Shown here one piece after another: positions 15,627 to 24,754 of a DNA stretch of 64,000 bases (position 1 is its first letter; every line of letters begins with the position of its first letter). Where the stretch lies: the NCBI GenBank assembly GCA_947177165.1, contig CAMWTP010000017.1, forward strand, positions 1 through 64,000, read 5' to 3'. This DNA is from an uncultured Lachnospiraceae bacterium (lineage in GTDB: Bacteria > Bacillota > Clostridia > Lachnospirales > Lachnospiraceae). The position numbers and the translations under genes were made by a program. Below the pieces are notes generated by a model that saw only the letters and a program-made list of their open reading frames with translations, ran no database searches and was not told where the DNA came from.

Positions 15627-17096
15627 TTATTTCCAAAAATTGTACCGCTTCATCATTTCCTCGTCCTCCCTGGAATCTCCCACTGCAGCTGCATCCTTTG
15701 CGGAAATATCCAGCCAGCGGCACAACACCTCCGCCCCGCGGGCTTTGCCAGCGTCCGCAGAGACAATCTGCAGACAATTTTTTTCTATATAATAGCGCAC
15801 TGCCTTCCTATCCGATACATGCCCCATCACCATCTCCGCCTCCTGCCACAGCCATGGTCTGTGCGCTGGGCGCAGCAGTGTGACTTTATAAAGCTTCCCG
15901 CAGTTCCGGTAAGTCAGCACGCGAAAACAGCATTCTTTCTTCAACGCCGAAAGGTCTGCAAGCCACGTATCCTCCAGTTCATAAAAGGTTTCTCTTTTCT
16001 GTTCCAACACAAGATGCGCCCCTCCGGCAAAAATGCCTCCTGCAAACAAGTGGCGGATTTTGCGGCAGCGCTCCATAGCTTCCCTGTAGGGCAGCGTCGT
16101 TGCAAAAAGCAGATGCACTTTCTGTCTCGCAAGGATCTCAAGACCCGCCATAACATCCGGCGCCACATCTGCAATGCGCGGTTCTCCGCCGTAATCCTTT
16201 GAAGGCAGCAAGGTTCCATCGATGTCCAGAAATACTGCTTTTGGGCAGCGCGGAATCCGAAACAGCGGATAGGGGCCGAACAATACCTGATTCATAAAGT
16301 CCCCTCTCCCTCCATATGCAAGATAACAGGAACACTGCTTCCGGCTGCATTCCGGAATTGGGAAATCCTCCAATGTAGCCCAGTTCTTCTCCAGCGTTGA
16401 GCTGATATTGCAAGTGCGGAGCCTGCCATCTGCCTCCACAAACAGGCGGTTTTGGCACATGGCCGCATTCGATGACACCCGCATGAGTTCCCGCACAAAA
16501 TAAGGGTCAATCTCCTCAAACGCCTCCCGCTCCTCCTGTGTATAGGAACGCCGCAGACCGTCCATCTTGTTGACCCATAAGTAAATATCATTTAGTTCCT
16601 GTTTCAACGCTTGCAGCAGCGGCAGATTTTCCGGCACACCGACACTTCCCGCACAGAGCGGAATACCATAGTTTCGGAGCTCCCTGCACTTAGCCGCAAA
16701 TTCTGACACAGTTGTCATTTCTGGATGAAATGTAGCCCAAAGCCTTAATTTCTCCGGCACACCCCCTGCCTTTTCAAAACTGCTTAGAAATTCACTGACA
16801 GAAAAACTGAGATTGGTCTGTATCCCTGCCGCGTCAATATCCGCAGATGCGCTGAGCTGTGCCATCCCCTCCCAATACCAGCGATGTATCATCGCCTCAC
16901 CGTAGGGAACCACCATCAATGCCCCGATATGAAGCGCTTTTGCCCTCTTCTGCAGATTTTTAACAAAAGCCCACCACTGCACCCTGTCCCTGTCAAGTTC
17001 CCGCTCAGATATGGGATGCTTGGAAAACGGGCAATATGAACAGTGATAATTACAGCTTTTCAGGCTGCCGCGGTATAGAATCATGCGCTTGTCCAT
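15627..17096 (-). CDS. STM4011-type radical SAM protein fused to a HAD domain
   Basis: 489 residues. The N-terminal radical SAM domain (about 1-280) has the cluster motif CNYHCSYC (Cx3Cx2C) near residue 15. Later cysteines (CQNR, CNISS, and the group CSRKQCSCY near 250) could hold an auxiliary cluster or a structural site. From about residue 284 a HAD-superfamily domain begins: FLDIDGTLLPS (motif I, DxDGT), FATTLP (motif II) and VGDSREDEEMMKR (motif IV). It ends only a few residues after motif IV, shorter than usual. GGGAGG lies 6 nt before the ATG. The gene overlaps the upstream radical SAM gene by 47 bp. The reaction is unknown; the fusion suggests the modified product is dephosphorylated. 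Confidence 0.8.
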   Translation of the reverse strand: MDKRMILYRGSLKSCNYHCSYCPFSKHPISERELDRDRVQWWAFVKNLQKRAKALHIGALMVVPYGEAMIHRWYWEGMAQLSASADIDAAGIQTNLSFSVSEFLSSFEKAGGVPEKLRLWATFHPEMTTVSEFAAKCRELRNYGIPLCAGSVGVPENLPLLQALKQELNDIYLWVNKMDGLRRSYTQEEREAFEEIDPYFVRELMRVSSNAAMCQNRLFVEADGRLRTCNISSTLEKNWATLEDFPIPECSRKQCSCYLAYGGRGDFMNQVLFGPYPLFRIPRCPKAVFLDIDGTLLPSKDYGGEPRIADVAPDVMAGLEILARQKVHLLFATTLPYREAMERCRKIRHLFAGGIFAGGAHLVLEQKRETFYELEDTWLADLSALKKECCFRVLTYRNCGKLYKVTLLRPAHRPWLWQEAEMVMGHVSDRKAVRYYIEKNCLQIVSADAGKARGAEVLCRWLDISAKDAAAVGDSREDEEMMKRYNFWK

Positions 17097-18387
17097 GTAA
17101 AACCTCCCATTCCTGCATTGATTTTGCCACCTCCGGAGAGATCAGCTGCGGTCCAAGATAATCGGAGAGGCCAAGACCGCTTTCCGTCAGTGTTACGTAT
17201 CTTCGCAGTCTGGTGCCGCACACCACAGCAAGGCCCTGCTCCATCCATTCCCGCAGCAGGGGAAAATCTTCCATCACATCTCTTCCGAATAGTTCCCGAT
17301 ACCGCCCCAGATCGATTCCAGGACGAATCAACAGATGGCGGATCACATAACGTCTTTTCTGTTCCTCCTCCGACAGGATAATTCCGTGTGTAATTTTCAT
17401 AAAATCCTTTGTGTTTTCATAATCATTCAGCCGCGCCAGGCACTCGTTTCTGGTGATGGCATAGGGACTGCAGAAATGAAGCTTTCCCAGATAGCTTCTC
17501 CCGCCACATCCCAGACCGATTGAAGTGCCAAAACCGCATTCCGAGAACGCCCGCCCAGTATCCCGCCGCACAAACCGCCGCATGGAATCCTGACAGAACC
17601 CTTCTCCGTGCAGGAATCCGCACGCAGCCTGATACTGTGCATAAGCCGCCTCCGGCTCCAGGACAGCCCCCTCCCGTTCCATCCGTGCCCCATGCTTTAC
17701 ATACAGAGGATACAAAAAAATTTCCTCCGGCTCAAACCGCAGAACTTCCCTTAAAGATTCCAGCAGGCTTTCCTTTGTCTGCCCCGGAATCCCATAGATA
17801 AAATCGACATTGACACACGGAAAATCAAAAGCCTTTATCAATTCCAACGCTTCCCTTGCCTTTCGGGCATTGTGCTGCCGTCTCAGCGTCAGAAGCTCCC
17901 CGTCGTTGAAGCTCTGGATTCCCATGCTGATTCTCGATACCCCTGATTGTCTTAAGATTTCAAGTTTCTCTCTGGTCGTCTGATTGGGAGCGGTCTCCAC
18001 AACCAAGTCCCGCTTCCCGCCAAACCGAAAATGTTCCTTCAAAATGCCAAACATCCGCTCAAGCTGACTCTCTGTCAAAAACAGGGGCGTTCCTCCGCCA
18101 ATGACCAATTCGGAAAACTCCGTCCGGACAGAATCCAGTACCTCCTGATACTGCCTGCTCTGGCATTCGACAGTGTCCAGATACTTGTCCACCGCCTCCT
18201 GACACAGCCCGGTCACGGAAAACAGATTGCAGTAACCACACTTTGACTGGCAAAAAGGAATATGAAGATACAGACCATGCCCTTTGCCCGCCAGCATCGA
18301 GGCATAGTCCTGAAAACAAATATCTGTCAGCGGGCGGTATGCAGTTTTATGCGGATAGCTATACATATATTGAACATATGGATTCAT
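17050..18387 (-). CDS. STM4012-type radical SAM protein (HemW-like)
   Basis: 445 residues with LYLHIPFCQSKCGYCNLFS near residue 40 (Cx3Cx2C). The HemN/HemW-type motifs GGGTPLFL and ISMGIQSFNDGEL follow, and VNVDFIYGIPGQT near 200. The C-terminal helix-turn-helix-like region resembles HemW, a heme chaperone family, so simple annotation as coproporphyrinogen oxidase would be misleading. Context with STM4011-, 4013-, 4014- and 4015-like genes identifies the STM4012 group. Likely uses SAM and a [4Fe-4S] cluster. Substrate unknown. Confidence 0.82.
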   Translation of the reverse strand: MNPYVQYMYSYPHKTAYRPLTDICFQDYASMLAGKGHGLYLHIPFCQSKCGYCNLFSVTGLCQEAVDKYLDTVECQSRQYQEVLDSVRTEFSELVIGGGTPLFLTESQLERMFGILKEHFRFGGKRDLVVETAPNQTTREKLEILRQSGVSRISMGIQSFNDGELLTLRRQHNARKAREALELIKAFDFPCVNVDFIYGIPGQTKESLLESLREVLRFEPEEIFLYPLYVKHGARMEREGAVLEPEAAYAQYQAACGFLHGEGFCQDSMRRFVRRDTGRAFSECGFGTSIGLGCGGRSYLGKLHFCSPYAITRNECLARLNDYENTKDFMKITHGIILSEEEQKRRYVIRHLLIRPGIDLGRYRELFGRDVMEDFPLLREWMEQGLAVVCGTRLRRYVTLTESGLGLSDYLGPQLISPEVAKSMQEWEVLHGQAHDSIPRQPEKL

Positions 18388-18472
18388 AATTTTCGCCCCT
18401 TCTTATCTTACAGGAAAAACTGTCTGTGCAGCCCGCAGTTCTATTTTCGCAGTCTCTTACAGAAGCAAGTCC

Positions 18473-19354
18473 TTATATAAAAAAGTGTTTATAAGGAATC
18501 GTATTGACAGCCGGATGGTTGACGCCGTGGAACTGACAGCCATCCTCCCCATAACAGGTCCCGTGGTCAGAGCAGCAAATCACAAACGTATTCCCCCGCA
18601 GATTTTTCCACTCTGCAAACAACCGGCCCAGCTCCCCGTCCACATACCGGAGCGCTGCCGCATGACTCTGCATGCTGTCATTCGAAGCGCCCTCCAGATA
18701 AAAGTAGTTGGGATAATGGATTGCATCCACGTTCAGATACAGAAAAATGCGCTTCTCCGCGTCTGCCTTGGATAACTTTCCCAATATAAAATCCACCTGA
18801 TTTTTCGTGCTGTCCTTCACTGGACAGCCAAAGGATGGATTCCAATAGCTTTTCTGAAAATAGGAGGGAAATACCTTGCCCAAATCCGAGCGCTTGTCAA
18901 AAAATGCGACACCGCCCACACACCATGTATCATAACCATCTTTTTCAAGCCCCTCCATGATTGTGCTGCCCGAAAAGCCGTACGCTCCCTCTGGCGTTTT
19001 CCTGCCAAGCCCAATCGCTTTGGGAAAAAACAGAAGTTCCCGGTCTGCTACATTTTTCGCGTCATACCGACAGGGCAAAAATCCTGCAAACATCGCATGA
19101 TGCGATGGATAGGTAAAATTTCCCGGCGCCTGACACTTCTGCCATGGTCCATACTGGTTCAGCACAGGAGTACCGCCGGAAGCCTCCTCCTGAACCGCCA
19201 CATCGTAGCGCAGCGTGTCCAGACACACAAACAAAATATCCGAAGTCCCCACTACCTGTGTCATGTCCACCGAAGACTTTTGATGCTTCCCGGAAGACGT
19301 AAATAAACGCACAGGTACTTCCTGTGCCGTTGACGCAGCTGTATCCTCACTCAT
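18473..19354 (-). CDS. STM4013/SEN3800-type sulfatase-fold hydrolase
   Basis: 293 residues of the alkaline phosphatase/sulfatase superfamily. The metal-binding start is ILFVCLDTLRYD (near 40), the nucleophile region is NFTYPSHHAMFAG, and the second metal site is CCSDHGTCYGEDG with a later His in FHGVNHPAVNT. A metal-dependent phospho- or sulfo-hydrolase or transferase is likely. The ATG at 19354 is preferred over the one seven codons upstream because AAGGAG lies 9 nt before it. Third gene of the operon. No signal peptide, so it acts in the cytoplasm. Confidence 0.8.
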   Translation of the reverse strand: MSEDTAASTAQEVPVRLFTSSGKHQKSSVDMTQVVGTSDILFVCLDTLRYDVAVQEEASGGTPVLNQYGPWQKCQAPGNFTYPSHHAMFAGFLPCRYDAKNVADRELLFFPKAIGLGRKTPEGAYGFSGSTIMEGLEKDGYDTWCVGGVAFFDKRSDLGKVFPSYFQKSYWNPSFGCPVKDSTKNQVDFILGKLSKADAEKRIFLYLNVDAIHYPNYFYLEGASNDSMQSHAAALRYVDGELGRLFAEWKNLRGNTFVICCSDHGTCYGEDGCQFHGVNHPAVNTIPYKHFFI

Positions 19355-19381
19355 GATCGCATTCTCCTTTTCCATTATATT

Positions 19382-20425
19382 TTATTTGCCACACAGCCAT
19401 TGCCGCATCATCTCTGCCTGATGACCGTAAATGCTGTTTTTATTGTAAATATCCTGATAAATCAAGTCACCCTGCGCATTCATCTCTATGATTCGCGGCT
19501 TCATGCTCCCTTTTTCCAACAGGATATCTATGCCGGCACTCCTAAGACCAGGATAGATCTCCATACTCTTCTGACACAGCTTTGCGATGTCATCAAGCGT
19601 ATGCGCCGGCAGTTTCAGCGCAGCAGTCTCCAAAGGCCGGTTGTTCAAATGGAGATTCGTAATCGGTCCCTTTGAGAGCCTTCCCAACAGGAAATCTAAT
19701 CTTCCATCCTGCACCACCGCCCGCAAATCATAGGAGTAACCTTGATATTCTGCTTTGGCATACCACTGCTCCACAATGCAGTCCATCTCCAGAATCCGGT
19801 CAAGAAGCGGAAAGACTTCCTCCGTCTTAGAAAAACGCCGCAGGCATTTGGTATTCACGAAAGTGCCGTCCGCCTGTAACAGCGCACAGCTATAGAGCGC
19901 CATCCGCCCGGTCTGCGGCTGCCAGCGCAATGCAGATACACCCGCAGCGCCGGAACCCTTGACCGGCTTAATAAACACCTGATGCATCCGCTGTCTGTGC
20001 ATCTCCTCAAAAAGCAGTTCTGCAGTAAGTTTCCCTGTGTTCAAACAAACATAAGTTTGCATTATCTCCGTCACCGGCAGTCCAGCCTGCTGCAGTCTTG
20101 CCTTGCACGCCCGTTTATCCAGCAATTCTATCATCGCAGATGGTATATTCAAAAACGTCATCTTTCGCTTTTGTGCGTAACTGCCCAATTCTTCAAGCTG
20201 TCGTATGTATCCGTCTGCCAGACCGTTCAACTCCTCAAGCGAGCAGCTTGACCAAAGCGGCGGATCGATTTTTACAAACAGCTCCTCCGCCACAGGCAGC
20301 CGCCTGCAGTCATTCCAACTGTTCCAATCCGTAAACACGATGGGAAGCCCTTTCTGTTCTGCCGCTTTTTCCAGATAAATCGTCCTCTTGGTACCAGAGC
20401 TCCCCAGCAATACCACCTGTCTCAT
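19382..20425 (-). CDS. STM4014-type ATP-grasp protein
   Basis: 347 residues. Glycine-rich VFIKPVKGSGAAGVSALRW (near 150-170) and the C-terminal metal/ATP motif IIEMNAQGDLIYQDIYN fit the ATP-grasp fold, which ligates a carboxylate to an amine or thiol through an acyl-phosphate. The N-terminal pre-ATP-grasp domain starts MRQVVLLGSSGTKR. The start overlaps the stop of the upstream gene by 4 bp (ATGA), showing tight coupling. Substrate unknown. Confidence 0.78.
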   Translation of the reverse strand: MRQVVLLGSSGTKRTIYLEKAAEQKGLPIVFTDWNSWNDCRRLPVAEELFVKIDPPLWSSCSLEELNGLADGYIRQLEELGSYAQKRKMTFLNIPSAMIELLDKRACKARLQQAGLPVTEIMQTYVCLNTGKLTAELLFEEMHRQRMHQVFIKPVKGSGAAGVSALRWQPQTGRMALYSCALLQADGTFVNTKCLRRFSKTEEVFPLLDRILEMDCIVEQWYAKAEYQGYSYDLRAVVQDGRLDFLLGRLSKGPITNLHLNNRPLETAALKLPAHTLDDIAKLCQKSMEIYPGLRSAGIDILLEKGSMKPRIIEMNAQGDLIYQDIYNKNSIYGHQAEMMRQWLCGK

Positions 20426-21312
20426 TCTGTCAGCATGGCGTTTCTATAAATTTCACCCTTATACTCTCTTGCTTCTTCCTGCTCAGAAACATCCACTTCC
20501 ATTGGCAGTGCTCCCAGCTTCTCTGCCATGTCATCAGACAGATAGTTATAGTGCAGATCCAGTTTCCCGATATTCGGCCATGCAGGAACTTTTTCCAAGA
20601 GCAGCGCGCCTCCCTTATCTGTCAGTGTGCCGTTCGACAAATCGAGCGTGCTAATCTGCCCCATGAATTTACTGTCGAGGACGATCGCTGTCAGCTCATC
20701 CTGTATCTCACTGTTTGTGATTCCAAGATACGTAAGTGCCGGAAAATCTGCCTGCTCTAAAAGTTCCTTGATCGTATCCTCATCCCCGTCGAAACCATAA
20801 TCCTCAATACCAATAAAAAGAAGAAGCTTTTTCAGTTTTGGAAGCTTTGCCTTCTGGATCGACTGTATGACATCCTTCGAAAGCCCTCCGCAGATGATCG
20901 TCAGCGCCTCAAGTTCCTCATGGCAGATATCCCCCAGCTCCAAATCCATACTGCCCTTAATGGTCAGCTCCTTCAGCTGCGGCATTGCCTCCCAGAGCTT
21001 ACTGTAATCTCCCTGAATAATCCATGACACTTCACATTCCTCAAACCCCATATTGCCGATAAACAATTTCTCAATATGGGAAAATTTCTCTGCATTTGCC
21101 ACAATCGCATCGATGACTGCCTGGCAGCTCTCCTCATATGCACCTCCCCAATTGCCAATTACCAGCTCTTTCAGGTGCGGAAAATGTTCACTCTCCATAA
21201 TTTCTTCAATCATCGTCGCAGGACCTTTTCCCTGTTCATACTCCCCATAATCATAGAAAAATGTCTTTTTTGTTAAATCGACATTTTCCTCTTCCACCAT
21301 TGAAAATTGCAT
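20422..21312 (-). CDS. STM4015-type leucine-rich-repeat-like protein
   Basis: About 296 residues, acidic, with repeated LKELVIGN, LEALTII, LKKLLLFIG, LTYLGITN and ISTLDLSNG units typical of an LRR solenoid. Probably a scaffold or recognition subunit rather than an enzyme. The second ATG (21312) is preferred because AGGAGG is about 8 nt before it. First gene of the five-gene operon, preceded by a good promoter. The residual region between it and the MATE gene is only 78 bp and holds no precursor-peptide gene. Confidence 0.75.
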   Translation of the reverse strand: MQFSMVEEENVDLTKKTFFYDYGEYEQGKGPATMIEEIMESEHFPHLKELVIGNWGGAYEESCQAVIDAIVANAEKFSHIEKLFIGNMGFEECEVSWIIQGDYSKLWEAMPQLKELTIKGSMDLELGDICHEELEALTIICGGLSKDVIQSIQKAKLPKLKKLLLFIGIEDYGFDGDEDTIKELLEQADFPALTYLGITNSEIQDELTAIVLDSKFMGQISTLDLSNGTLTDKGGALLLEKVPAWPNIGKLDLHYNYLSDDMAEKLGALPMEVDVSEQEEAREYKGEIYRNAMLTE

Positions 21313-21338
21313 ACGCATGCCCTCCTTTTTTTATAACA

Positions 21339-21367
21339 ATTATACTACCATGGTAAGAAATAAGCAA
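21339..21367 (-). promoter_or_regulatory. sigma-A promoter of the STM4015-STM4011-like operon
   Basis: Minus strand TTGCTT (21362-21367), 17-bp spacer, TATAAT (21339-21344). The spacer holds the palindrome TACCATGGTA, a possible operator core. Confidence 0.65.
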
Positions 21368-21390: not shown

Positions 21391-22752
21391 TCAAAACGAT
21401 GTTCCGTTTGCGGCAGACAATTTTCTGACCACAATAAAGTAACTGATCACAAGGATCACATCCGCTCCCGCCCACGCCATGATCTCCGCATAAAAGATGC
21501 CATTCTCTCCAACCAGCCGGGGCAAAAGCAGAGCGCTTGCAGTGCGCATGATAAACTCCGCGACGCCGGAAAGCATCGGCAGCACTGTATTTCCCATGCC
21601 CTGTATCGCAGCTCTCGTCACATGCAGTATGTACAGTACCGGCAGACAGACACTCATAATCGCCAGATAGCGATACGCAACCGCAAGTGTCGCTTCCACC
21701 GTCTCTGGAGCGCCGGAAATAAACAGCCCCAACAAAAATCTGCCAAACCCCAGCATGCACGCCGCGATCACAACAGATGTCAGAATCGCAATCACCACTG
21801 CCGCCCGCATACCGTCATGGATGCGCTTAATCTTTCCCGCACCCATATTCTGCCCCATATACGTCACCATGGCATATCCGTAGGAAGTCGCCGCAATCTC
21901 CAGCAGACCGTACAGCTTGTTTGTAGCTGTAAAGCCTGCGATAAAGATCACGCCAAAACCGTTTACCACAGCCTGCACGATCATGCCGCCGACCGCTATG
22001 ATCGCATTCTGAAACGCCATAGGAAAACCCAGATACATCAGCGCTCCCGCCAGTCCGGCGCTCATCTTGAAATCCCCTGGCTGAAAACGCAGCAGTTCAA
22101 TCTTTCTGATATGCCAGATGCAGAAAACGCTCGACACCAGCTGCGCGATCAGCGTCGCAGCCGCAGCCCCGGCTATTCCCCAGCCAAAGCCGATGACAAA
22201 CAGCATGTCCAGCAAAATATTCACGACTGACGCGACAATCATGGCATTGAGCGGCGTCCGTCCGTCACCCAGCGCGCGCAGGATACATGCCAGCAGATTG
22301 TACAGCATCACGACCGGTATCCCCATAAACATAATCCGCAGATACAAAATCGTGCCATCCCAGATGTCTGGCGGCGTCTGTAATATCCGCAGCAGCGGCT
22401 CTGCCATAAGCTGTCCCGCCGCGACGAGAACCAGCGCCGATAACGCGGCAATCACTGCAGATCCGGCGACGGATTTTCTCAAAGCATCGTTCTTTCCCGC
22501 CCCAAACTCCTTTGCCATCATGATGCCAAAGCCCTGCGTGAATCCCTGAATGATTCCCAGCATCATCCAGTTCATCCACTCCGCGGCGCCGAGCGCCGCC
22601 AGCGCATTGACACCGAGCACTTTTCCAACGACCATCGTGTCAACCACAGTGTATAACTGCTGAAATATATTTCCCGCCATCAGCGACAATGCAAATGTTA
22701 AAATAATTGAGGAGGGCTTTCCCTCTGTCATATTTTTAATTTTTACCGCCAT
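21391..22752 (-). CDS. MATE-family multidrug/metabolite exporter
   Basis: A 453-residue inner-membrane transporter with 12 predicted spans in two homologous halves. Its start, KNMTEGKPSSIILTFALSLM, is typical of the DinF/NorM-like clade of Clostridia. It exchanges Na+ or H+ for organic cations or metabolites. The ATG at 22752 is chosen for GGAGAG 6 nt upstream, not the TTG five codons earlier. It precedes the STM4015-like operon by 78 bp on the same strand, but that operon has its own promoter. Read-through and a role in exporting its product are possible. Confidence 0.9.
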   Translation of the reverse strand: MAVKIKNMTEGKPSSIILTFALSLMAGNIFQQLYTVVDTMVVGKVLGVNALAALGAAEWMNWMMLGIIQGFTQGFGIMMAKEFGAGKNDALRKSVAGSAVIAALSALVLVAAGQLMAEPLLRILQTPPDIWDGTILYLRIMFMGIPVVMLYNLLACILRALGDGRTPLNAMIVASVVNILLDMLFVIGFGWGIAGAAAATLIAQLVSSVFCIWHIRKIELLRFQPGDFKMSAGLAGALMYLGFPMAFQNAIIAVGGMIVQAVVNGFGVIFIAGFTATNKLYGLLEIAATSYGYAMVTYMGQNMGAGKIKRIHDGMRAAVVIAILTSVVIAACMLGFGRFLLGLFISGAPETVEATLAVAYRYLAIMSVCLPVLYILHVTRAAIQGMGNTVLPMLSGVAEFIMRTASALLLPRLVGENGIFYAEIMAWAGADVILVISYFIVVRKLSAANGTSF

Positions 22753-22792
22753 ATTTTCTCTCCACAATCCTTACTGTTACGAAACAAAAGCC

Positions 22793-22831: not shown

Positions 22832-23050
22832 CTTATAAAAATTACTATTTAAGAATATCATTGCCGCCCTGACATGTCAATCATACAATATACATTTGTC
22901 ACTAAATGCCTTTCATACGTATTACTGTTCGCGTCCTCTGATTTTGGCACATTTTGTTGATTAAAAGCGACAACAAGTTTACTATTTCATCCCATTTGTG
23001 TTATACTGTTATTGTTCACTACTGTTTCAGCTAATATGGAGGGCATAACC

Positions 23051-24754
23051 ATGGATTATCACAAGAAAAAAATACCAATTGGAATCGACCGTTTCAAGAA
23101 ACTCCGTGAGGAAGACTTTTACTATATTGACAAATCAGGTATGATACGAGACCTACTCTATTCATGGGGTGAAGTAAATCTTTTTACAAGGCCGCGGCGT
23201 TTCGGAAAGTCGCTAAATCTTGATATGCTCAAAACCTTTTTTGAAATCGGGGCTGATCCTTCTTATTTTGAAGGCTTGGAAATTATGCAGGAAACTGGGC
23301 TTTGTGAGAAATATATGGGTAAATTTCCTGTCATTTCCATCACCCTGAAGGATGTGGAAGGACTGACCTACGAATCAGCGGTCAAAGCAATGGGTGGAAT
23401 CATTCGAAAGGAAGCACGCAGACTCCAGTTTTTGCTTGACAGCGATAAACTGTCCGACTGGGATAAGGATTATATGAAATCTTTTTTCAGCTTAAGTATG
23501 GATGCAGAGCTACAGAGAGAAAGCCTGGCAGTATTCTCAGAATTGTTATACAAACATTTTCATCAAAAGGTCATCCTTTTGATTGACGAGTATGATGTGC
23601 CTCTCGACAAAGCCTGGCAGCATGGATATTATCATGAAATGGTCAGCCATATCCGCTCCCTTTTCAGCAATGCCTTAAAGACAAACGATTATCTCCACGC
23701 AGCCGTGATCACCGGCTGTCTTCGGATTGCAAAAGAGAGCATCTTTACCGGATTAAACAATCTTAATGTAAATACTGTTGCTGACACAGGCTTCGCACAA
23801 TATTTCGGTTTTACAGACAACGAAGTGCGGAATATGCTGCACTATTATGAACTTGACGAATTTTATGAATCCATTAAGGCGTGGTATGACGGTTATCGTT
23901 TTGGTCAATTAGAAATCTACTGCCCATGGGATGTCATTAATTACTGTTACAAACTACTTGAAAACAGAAACCGCAAACCGGAAGCCTTCTGGGCAAACAG
24001 CAGCAGTAATTACATCATACAGGACATCCTCTCCCATGCTTCCGAAACCGCAAAGGAACAGATTGAGCGTCTGATCTCAGGCGAATCCATCGAACAGCGG
24101 ATCATCCCGGAACTGACTTATACAGACCTGAGCAACGAAGACATCACAATCCGGGAAACATATCTCTGGAGTGTACTGTATTCCACTGGATATCTGACTG
24201 AAGCACCTGAGGAGACAGGAAACGGCCTGCACAGACTTGTCATACCCAACAGGGAAATCCTTCAGATTTACCGTGATAAGATACAGTCATGGTACAATAT
24301 CAATGTCCGCAGGGATACACAGAAATGGCAGGCATTCTGCGATGCCGTGAAAACAGGCAGCGCTGACAAAATCCAGGAATTATTTAACGCCTACCTGAGC
24401 CACACCATCAGCATCCGCGACACCTTTGTAAAAAAGGAAATGAAGGAGAACTTTTATCACGGAATGCTCCTTGGCATCCTGCAGTGTGACGGCAGCTGGG
24501 TCATCAAATCCAATCAGGAGTCAGGACTTGGATACTGCGATATCCTTCTGCTGGTACCTGGCGACAAAATCGGCTGTGCCATAGAACTGAAGTATGCAGA
24601 AAACGGTACTTTTGACCCCGCCTGTGAGGAGGCTCTGACACAGATTGATGCGAAAAAATACACAGACTACCTGCAGCAGGAAGGCATGGAAACCATATAT
24701 ACCTACGCTGTAGCCTGCTATAAAAAGAGCTGCAGGGTCGTCTGCAGAATCTGA
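23051..24754 (+). CDS. AAA-ATPase-like / PD-(D/E)XK_9 protein
   Basis: 567 residues. The N-terminal AAA-ATPase_like domain starts KKIPIGIDRFKKLREE, with a P-loop-like TRPRRFGKSLNLDML (near 55) and Walker-B-like VILLIDEYDVPLD (near 180). The C-terminal PD-(D/E)XK nuclease-like domain has GYCDILLLVPG and CAIELKYA (D...ExK, near 505-530). These genes occur in many copies in gut Clostridia and Bacteroidetes; function is unproven, with mobility or defence suggested. The ATG at 23051 follows GGAGGG by 7 nt. Flanking matched hairpins suggest it moved as a unit. Confidence 0.85.
   Translation: MDYHKKKIPIGIDRFKKLREEDFYYIDKSGMIRDLLYSWGEVNLFTRPRRFGKSLNLDMLKTFFEIGADPSYFEGLEIMQETGLCEKYMGKFPVISITLKDVEGLTYESAVKAMGGIIRKEARRLQFLLDSDKLSDWDKDYMKSFFSLSMDAELQRESLAVFSELLYKHFHQKVILLIDEYDVPLDKAWQHGYYHEMVSHIRSLFSNALKTNDYLHAAVITGCLRIAKESIFTGLNNLNVNTVADTGFAQYFGFTDNEVRNMLHYYELDEFYESIKAWYDGYRFGQLEIYCPWDVINYCYKLLENRNRKPEAFWANSSSNYIIQDILSHASETAKEQIERLISGESIEQRIIPELTYTDLSNEDITIRETYLWSVLYSTGYLTEAPEETGNGLHRLVIPNREILQIYRDKIQSWYNINVRRDTQKWQAFCDAVKTGSADKIQELFNAYLSHTISIRDTFVKKEMKENFYHGMLLGILQCDGSWVIKSNQESGLGYCDILLLVPGDKIGCAIELKYAENGTFDPACEEALTQIDAKKYTDYLQQEGMETIYTYAVACYKKSCRVVCRI

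Follow-up and report, generated by a model that had tools for sequence, protein, structure and literature searches.

We analyzed a 64,000-nucleotide stretch of DNA from an uncultured Lachnospiraceae bacterium (positions 1 to 64,000 of contig CAMWTP010000017.1; we will call this stretch the window). It encodes homologs of STM4015, STM4014, STM4013, STM4012, and STM4011, in that order of transcription. This widespread bacterial set of genes has so far had names but no assigned function. We propose, with moderate confidence, that the leucine-rich repeat (LRR) protein STM4015 is the carrier or substrate protein of a pathway. Its C-terminal glutamate would be loaded by STM4014, which is an ATP-grasp ligase, and then processed by two radical S-adenosylmethionine (SAM) enzymes (STM4012 and STM4011) and two phosphatases (STM4013 and a HAD domain that is fused to STM4011).

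The last residue of STM4015 is almost always glutamate. When 32 diverse STM4015 proteins are aligned, Glu298 (numbered as in the window's protein) is the same in all of them and terminates the chain. Of 103 distinct sequences, including the window's, 102 end in glutamate. (These are the distinct C-terminal halves from 109 open reading frames, or ORFs; none were dropped.) The single exception is at locus L048, where stops interrupt the tail; beyond them, the same frame ends in LLTE. Four homologs that we read later also end in glutamate: those from Calothrix, Embleya NBC_00888, and Eubacterium plexicaudatum, and a second copy from S. cadmiisoli. STM4015 proteins with this ending are spread across six phyla. 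Unlike STM4015, the other four proteins vary in their last residue. As a control, we counted the commonest one in the same loci: arginine for STM4014 (11/97), leucine for STM4013 (51/100) and STM4012 (45/97), and arginine or lysine for STM4011 (9 each of 67). An ATGA overlap with the start of STM4014 cannot account for the glutamate, because 24 of 101 STM4015 genes cannot have this overlap, and because in genome G528, from another family of the window's phylum, STM4015, STM4014, and STM4013-STM4012-STM4011 lie on three separate contigs.

Within 101 tails, position -2 (counting back from the end) is T, G, S, or A; position -3 is L, V, F, I, or Y; and position -8 is W or Y in 95. The linker that precedes the tail (residues -22 to -9) has a median net charge of -4 across 101 homologs, with a range of -9 to +3. 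The AlphaFold2 model of the window's STM4015 has a predicted local distance difference test (pLDDT) score of 91.9, and its fold is that of an LRR protein. Its best match in the PDB is 2ra8 (41% identity), followed by LRR proteins. 2ra8 was deposited by structural genomics in 2007. Sequence searches found no other relative of STM4015 among solved structures, and we found no open paper that mentions 2RA8 or Q64V53. The original prediction for this region described the protein as LRR-like, which agrees with the predicted fold, although Pfam gives no LRR match in the window's protein. It also stated that the operon has no precursor peptide. This is probably wrong: STM4015, with its C-terminal glutamate behind a variable and mostly acidic linker, is the best candidate for the substrate. 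Streptomyces fungicidicus, Nonomuraea, and two Deinococcus have tandem pairs of STM4015, each with such a tail. In G528, a WGR domain is fused to the N-terminus of STM4015 (L150:5544-6650); the tail is retained, on a contig apart from the rest of the set.

STM4014 is predicted to be an ATP-grasp protein similar to RimK and LysX (pLDDT of 92.7). RimK adds glutamates to the C-terminal glutamate of ribosomal protein S6. The best PDB match to the STM4014 model is ArgX bound to the carrier LysW, and the top three hits from Foldseek are LysX or ArgX. In the VIA realignment of the model, the top nine entries are all LysX/ArgX or RimK: LysX/ArgX are entries 1 and 2, tied with RimK, and RimK structures are entries 3-7. 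We had spotted the tail of STM4015 before we ran the structure search with STM4014, so the search was a test that could have failed. Together, the near-invariant C-terminal glutamate and the adjacent ligase, whose fold is nearest to those of enzymes that act on a C-terminal glutamate of this kind, point to one reaction.

In sequence, STM4014 is weakly similar to such ligases. Searches of PDB sequences gave nothing useful, and the window's protein scores far below the cut-offs for RimK (17.8 vs. 143.4 bits for TIGR00768) and MptN (23.3 vs. 350 bits). Among 67 relatives of STM4014, 42 match RimK, 55 match MptN, and 11 match CofF at E ≤ 0.01. At this threshold, the window's protein matches no LysX family. 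Of the 67 relatives, 4 match LysX_arch at all (best E = 5.2e-6). The GSWGR motif, with which LysX and ArgX recognize EDWGE, is absent from all 105 STM4014 sequences, and the C-terminal EDWGE motif is absent from all 109 STM4015 sequences.

We also considered that the tail of STM4015 might be only a docking signal that binds a partner enzyme, much as PDZ-like sites are bound by free C-termini. STM4015 would then be a scaffold, STM4014 would join two small molecules, and the product of the whole set would be a soluble metabolite. It would fit with this idea that only the last residue is invariant in the 101 tails, while positions -2 to -8 vary, and that the LRR face of STM4015 is highly conserved in the alignment. 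Also, small-molecule ATP-grasp ligases have folds that are similar to the STM4014 model, and two phosphatase-like hydrolases would suit phosphorylated small molecules. However, the nearest structural matches (LysX/ArgX, RimK, and PsnB) act on the carboxylates of proteins or peptides, and docking leaves the coincidence with a near-invariant C-terminal glutamate unexplained. We consider this alternative unlikely.

Both radical SAM proteins have the CxxxCxxC cluster motif in every sequence (103/103 for STM4012 and 103/103 for STM4011). STM4012 resembles HemN and HemW, and its closest sequences in the PDB are HemN (1olt) and NocN (9p2u), which is a methyltransferase. The window's protein scores below the cut-offs for both HemN (153.8 vs. 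324.95 bits) and HemW (162.2 vs. 205.4 bits). In STM4011, Cys214, Cys229, Cys250, Cys255, and Cys257 are invariant (30/30). The pattern of these cysteines, which may or may not belong to an auxiliary cluster of the SPASM/Twitch kind, is present in 98 of 103 sequences, and there is no match to the SPASM domain. We also noticed that on Rhizobium and Cupriavidus plasmids (L131:8944-11261, L133:6944-9252, and L132:8887-11222), an STM4012-like protein (about 30% identical) and a class I SAM methyltransferase form a pair. The STM4012-like protein is near genes for a cbb3 oxidase in the two Rhizobium records that we read.

STM4013 matches Sulfatase in Pfam and belongs to the sulfatase/alkaline phosphatase superfamily. 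It had been described as a sulfatase-fold hydrolase, and the fold is right. Sulfatases that use formylglycine have a Cys or Ser nucleophile in the motif C/S-x-P-S-R, and a Thr nucleophile suits phosphoester chemistry in this superfamily. Thr88 of STM4013, at the position of the nucleophile in this superfamily, is invariant in two alignments (31/31 and 27/27). A motif pattern that allows T, C, or S at this position matched 93 of 108 STM4013 sequences, and all five of the listed types have T; the 15 sequences that it missed, one of them a fragment, were not inspected singly. We therefore rejected a formylglycine sulfatase, because the residue is Thr instead of Cys or Ser, and STM4013 is more likely a phosphoester hydrolase. 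On a Streptomyces albidoflavus plasmid (NZ_CP109086, L122:6902-10351), an STM4013 homolog belongs to a different cassette. Its companions are a radical SAM protein resembling MoaA, a protein resembling thymidylate kinase, a small protein, and a NUDIX hydrolase, and none of the other four families was found in the 18.8 kb that we read. This cassette hints that STM4013 handles phosphorylated, nucleotide-like compounds.

The HAD domain at the end of the STM4011 ORF was overlooked in the original prediction, which listed five genes: the five genes are present, but there is a sixth function. The domain has the DxDGT and GDxxxD motifs, and in the fused relatives that we looked at, the chain stops soon after GDxxxD. 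Of the 77 related loci with STM4011, 66 carry the fusion to the HAD domain (among the other 11, L043 is cut by a contig end). In Salmonella and E. coli, it is a separate gene immediately after STM4011. The fusion and the adjacency tie the HAD domain to the pathway. In D. taeanensis, a HAD gene is the third after STM4011. No HAD gene is annotated beside the operon in records from Paenibacillus, two Streptomyces, Methylobacterium, and two Deinococcus, and the plasmid annotation describes itself as incomplete.

We propose the following mechanism. The LRR domain of STM4015 would dock the enzymes, and the flexible tail would display a free C-terminal glutamate. STM4014 would activate the carboxylate of this glutamate and attach an amino compound, probably an amino acid. 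STM4012 (HemN-like) and STM4011 would then alter the tethered group, and STM4013 and the HAD domain may strip phosphate from a building block or an intermediate. The product would either be cleaved off by a peptidase that is encoded elsewhere or be left on STM4015 as a protein modification. The earlier idea of a modification pathway is supported in general terms.

Another possibility is that the RimK-like STM4014 extends the C-terminus of STM4015 with amino acids, that the radical SAM enzymes modify this tail, and that the end product is the modified LRR protein and not a released metabolite. This could explain why there is no release peptidase among the six functions or protein families of the operon (NCBIfam and Pfam). 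The RimK structures among the VIA entries are consistent with it, and the tandem copies of STM4015 and the WGR fusion would suit a protein that has its own role. But it is hard to find a step for the two phosphatase-like hydrolases in such a scheme, and neither the AlphaFold2 model nor the alignment gives a clue to the role of a modified LRR protein. We consider this reading improbable.

The five ORFs run on the minus strand from 21318 to 15627 with no large gaps (Table 1). The original prediction noted the 4-bp overlap of STM4015 with STM4014 and the 47-bp overlap of STM4012 with STM4011, and the ORF coordinates agree; at the other two junctions, the genes are 6 and 85 bp apart. Its assignment of the genes to the STM4011-STM4015 set is borne out by profile searches against NCBIfam, as each of the five proteins exceeds the cut-off for its own NCBIfam family, and by comparing gene neighborhoods. 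We scanned GTDB species genomes with STM4013 and used the best 80 of 114 loci, which are nearly all labelled as Lachnospiraceae or other Clostridia. In 75 of the 80, all five genes are on one strand in the order 4015-4014-4013-4012-4011, and Salmonella and E. coli have the same order. Of the five other loci, three (L043, L082, and L088) run into a contig end, and L096 and L098 are real exceptions. The co-occurrence of the five genes is not due to chance. We rejected the idea of a conserved extra gene between STM4013 and STM4012, possibly a release hydrolase, because the inserts in L052, L058, L063, L085, and L094 differ by eye (for instance, L052 has a HAD-like protein and L063 has an alpha/beta-hydrolase-like protein).

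Table 1. Features of the operon in the window, and accessory genes at other loci (positions in the last row are within the named loci)
Feature	Position	Strand	Details
STM4015 homolog	20422-21318	minus	298 aa; NCBIfam NF038076, 328.7 bits vs. cut-off 275
STM4015 linker, LRR domain to tail	20449-20490	minus	variable, mostly acidic; from alignment and charge table
STM4015 tail, last 8 residues	20425-20448	minus	YRNAMLTE-COOH; proposed attachment site is the C-terminal Glu
STM4014 homolog	19382-20425	minus	347 aa; NCBIfam NF038074, 327.3 bits vs. cut-off 175
STM4013 homolog	18473-19375	minus	300 aa; NCBIfam NF038075, 392.1 bits vs. cut-off 250
STM4012 homolog	17050-18387	minus	445 aa; NCBIfam NF006067, 512.1 bits vs. 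cut-off 380
STM4011-HAD fusion ORF	15627-17096	minus	489 aa; NCBIfam NF038073, 286.0 bits vs. cut-off 200
STM4011 domain	16245-17096	minus	radical SAM; further conserved Cys after the SAM domain
HAD-IIB (Cof-type) phosphatase domain	15627-16244	minus	aa ~285-489; Pfam PF08282, 34.8 bits vs. gathering score 20.9
DUF6745 protein and companion	L118:5192-6656; L119:5531-6856; L120:12016-13337; L121:12106-13415; L129:10979-12276; L130:3737-5359		

The distribution of the set is sporadic. Among 299 genomes of the window's family, 7 have STM4013 above its cut-off, and among 398 genomes of the phylum, 8 have STM4015 above its cut-off (both counts include the window's own genome). STM4012 is found in 154 of 5,426 E. 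coli genomes, and all 154 places are chromosomal. STM4015 is beside STM4014 in Bacillota, Pseudomonadota, Actinomycetota, Deinococcota, and Bacteroidota. A sixth phylum, Cyanobacteriota, has one distant homolog of STM4015, with no STM4014 within the 9.2 kb around it. This homolog, on a Calothrix plasmid (L177:2014-3288), has a long N-terminal extension and ends in ...RYCSVAE; none of the other four families is matched in those 9.2 kb.

In Eubacterium plexicaudatum ASF492, the set is found at three distant places: STM4013 alone (L098, on a 6.3-Mb record), STM4015 with STM4014, and STM4012 with STM4011. The latter two are 1.2 Mb apart on one contig, which is presumably the record of L098. Since all five families persist unlinked in both G528 and E. 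plexicaudatum, we argue that they have a joint function. The STM4012 of E. plexicaudatum (L185, L188) is broken into two pieces that lie side by side, and the scattered copy may therefore not work. On a Bacteroides finegoldii plasmid (L123:5965-7908), STM4013 is a 77-amino-acid fragment and STM4012 is absent; STM4015, STM4014, and a long STM4011 remain, and a MATE gene follows. In one E. coli genome (NZ_OZ546938.1), an IS1 element lies inside the match to STM4012. A phage collection yielded three matches, each about 50% identical to the query, as the Salmonella copies are. That the set is a degenerate or selfish remnant, with no common function and held together by linkage, is very improbable: the sporadic distribution and the broken copies in B. 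finegoldii and E. plexicaudatum would fit, but the gene order is identical in nearly all of the related loci, the radical SAM motifs are intact throughout, and G528 keeps all five families on three contigs.

Upstream of the operon, a shared promoter had been predicted at 21339-21367. There is a perfect -10 hexamer (TATAAT, 21344-21339), but the first hexamer, TTGCTT, 17 bp away, is weak. A consensus scan of the region found 16 promoter-like sites (the mean for shuffled sequences was 7.3) and omits this candidate because its first hexamer is too weak. Further upstream is a MATE gene (21391-22767). The original prediction pointed out this exporter next to the operon, and the gene is there, but of the 68 loci in which the corresponding stretch is visible, 4 have a MATE gene directly upstream on the same strand, and two of these are close copies of the window's gene. 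A MATE-like protein (over 60 bits) is present in 6 of the 80 loci. This is weak evidence for export, and we rejected MATE as a dedicated exporter or conserved partner. Beyond it, on the plus strand, a large ORF (23012-24754) resembles by eye the AAA-ATPase/PD-(D/E)XK proteins that are common in gut anaerobes.

In six plasmid records from Streptomyces, Methylobacterium, and Deinococcus, a DUF6745 protein and a companion of about 100 amino acids are beside the operon. The last residue of the DUF6745 proteins is Thr or Ala, and that of the companions is Asp (6/6), which is perhaps another useful acidic C-terminus. The annotations of the regions from Salmonella, E. coli, and Paenibacillus include neither protein. 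We rejected the two as part of the set and consider them accessory. We found no open paper on DUF6745.

More tentatively, these genes may represent a new class of carrier-protein biosynthesis, in which a LysX/RimK-like ligase loads the C-terminal glutamate of an LRR protein and the attached group then passes to two radical SAM enzymes and two phosphatases for remodeling, in at least five and probably six phyla. STM4015 would have been overlooked as the substrate because it looks like a scaffold and not like a precursor peptide. If STM4015 is a carrier, then LRR proteins would join small zinc proteins and peptides in carrier-protein biosynthesis, in a new combination with radical SAM enzymes, and a single measurement of the mass of the intact protein would open up the pathway. 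Among 5.39 million open-licence full texts, any of the five STM names is mentioned in two, and both give it in lists only. Our searches of open full texts found none that unites radical SAM, ATP-grasp, LRR, sulfatase, and operon, and none with the SEN names. Among the matches listed for the literature on carrier proteins, RimK, and WGR, the excerpts contain nothing about this set.

How does the system compare to known ones? The window's operon is like the STM4011-STM4015 set of NCBIfam in that all five cut-offs are exceeded and the order is that of Salmonella and E. coli. Unlike the named set, it includes a fused HAD domain, and the names of the families carry no function. STM4014 shares its fold and weak sequence similarity with the alpha-L-glutamate ligases RimK, MptN, and CofF, but it is far below the cut-offs for RimK and MptN. 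In the pearlin pathways (TglA and TmoA), biosynthesis occurs at the C-terminus of a ribosomal carrier, and the tmo pathway includes radical SAM chemistry, according to the excerpt of the source (PMC9303977); our proposal is similar in both respects. Unlike those pathways, this operon has no gene for a PEARL ligase or protease and has an ATP-grasp protein instead, and the carrier would be large and folded. In the systems of LysW with LysX and ArgW with ArgX, as described in excerpts of two papers, LysX attaches aminoadipate, through its amino group, to the C-terminal Glu of LysW at the gamma-carboxyl; synthesis of the product takes place on the carrier, from which it is then released (PMC10433800, PMC9303977). 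The proposed carrier is an LRR protein of about 290 amino acids instead of the small LysW with its zinc-binding cysteines; without EDWGE or GSWGR, STM4015 and STM4014 are not a strict LysW/LysX pair. Their partners are radical SAM enzymes and phosphatases rather than enzymes of lysine or arginine synthesis, and the operon lacks a LysK-like peptidase. What the two systems have in common is a protein with a near-invariant C-terminal Glu and acidic residues near its tail, together with an adjacent gene for an ATP-grasp ligase; the fold predicted for STM4014 is closest to ArgX and LysX.

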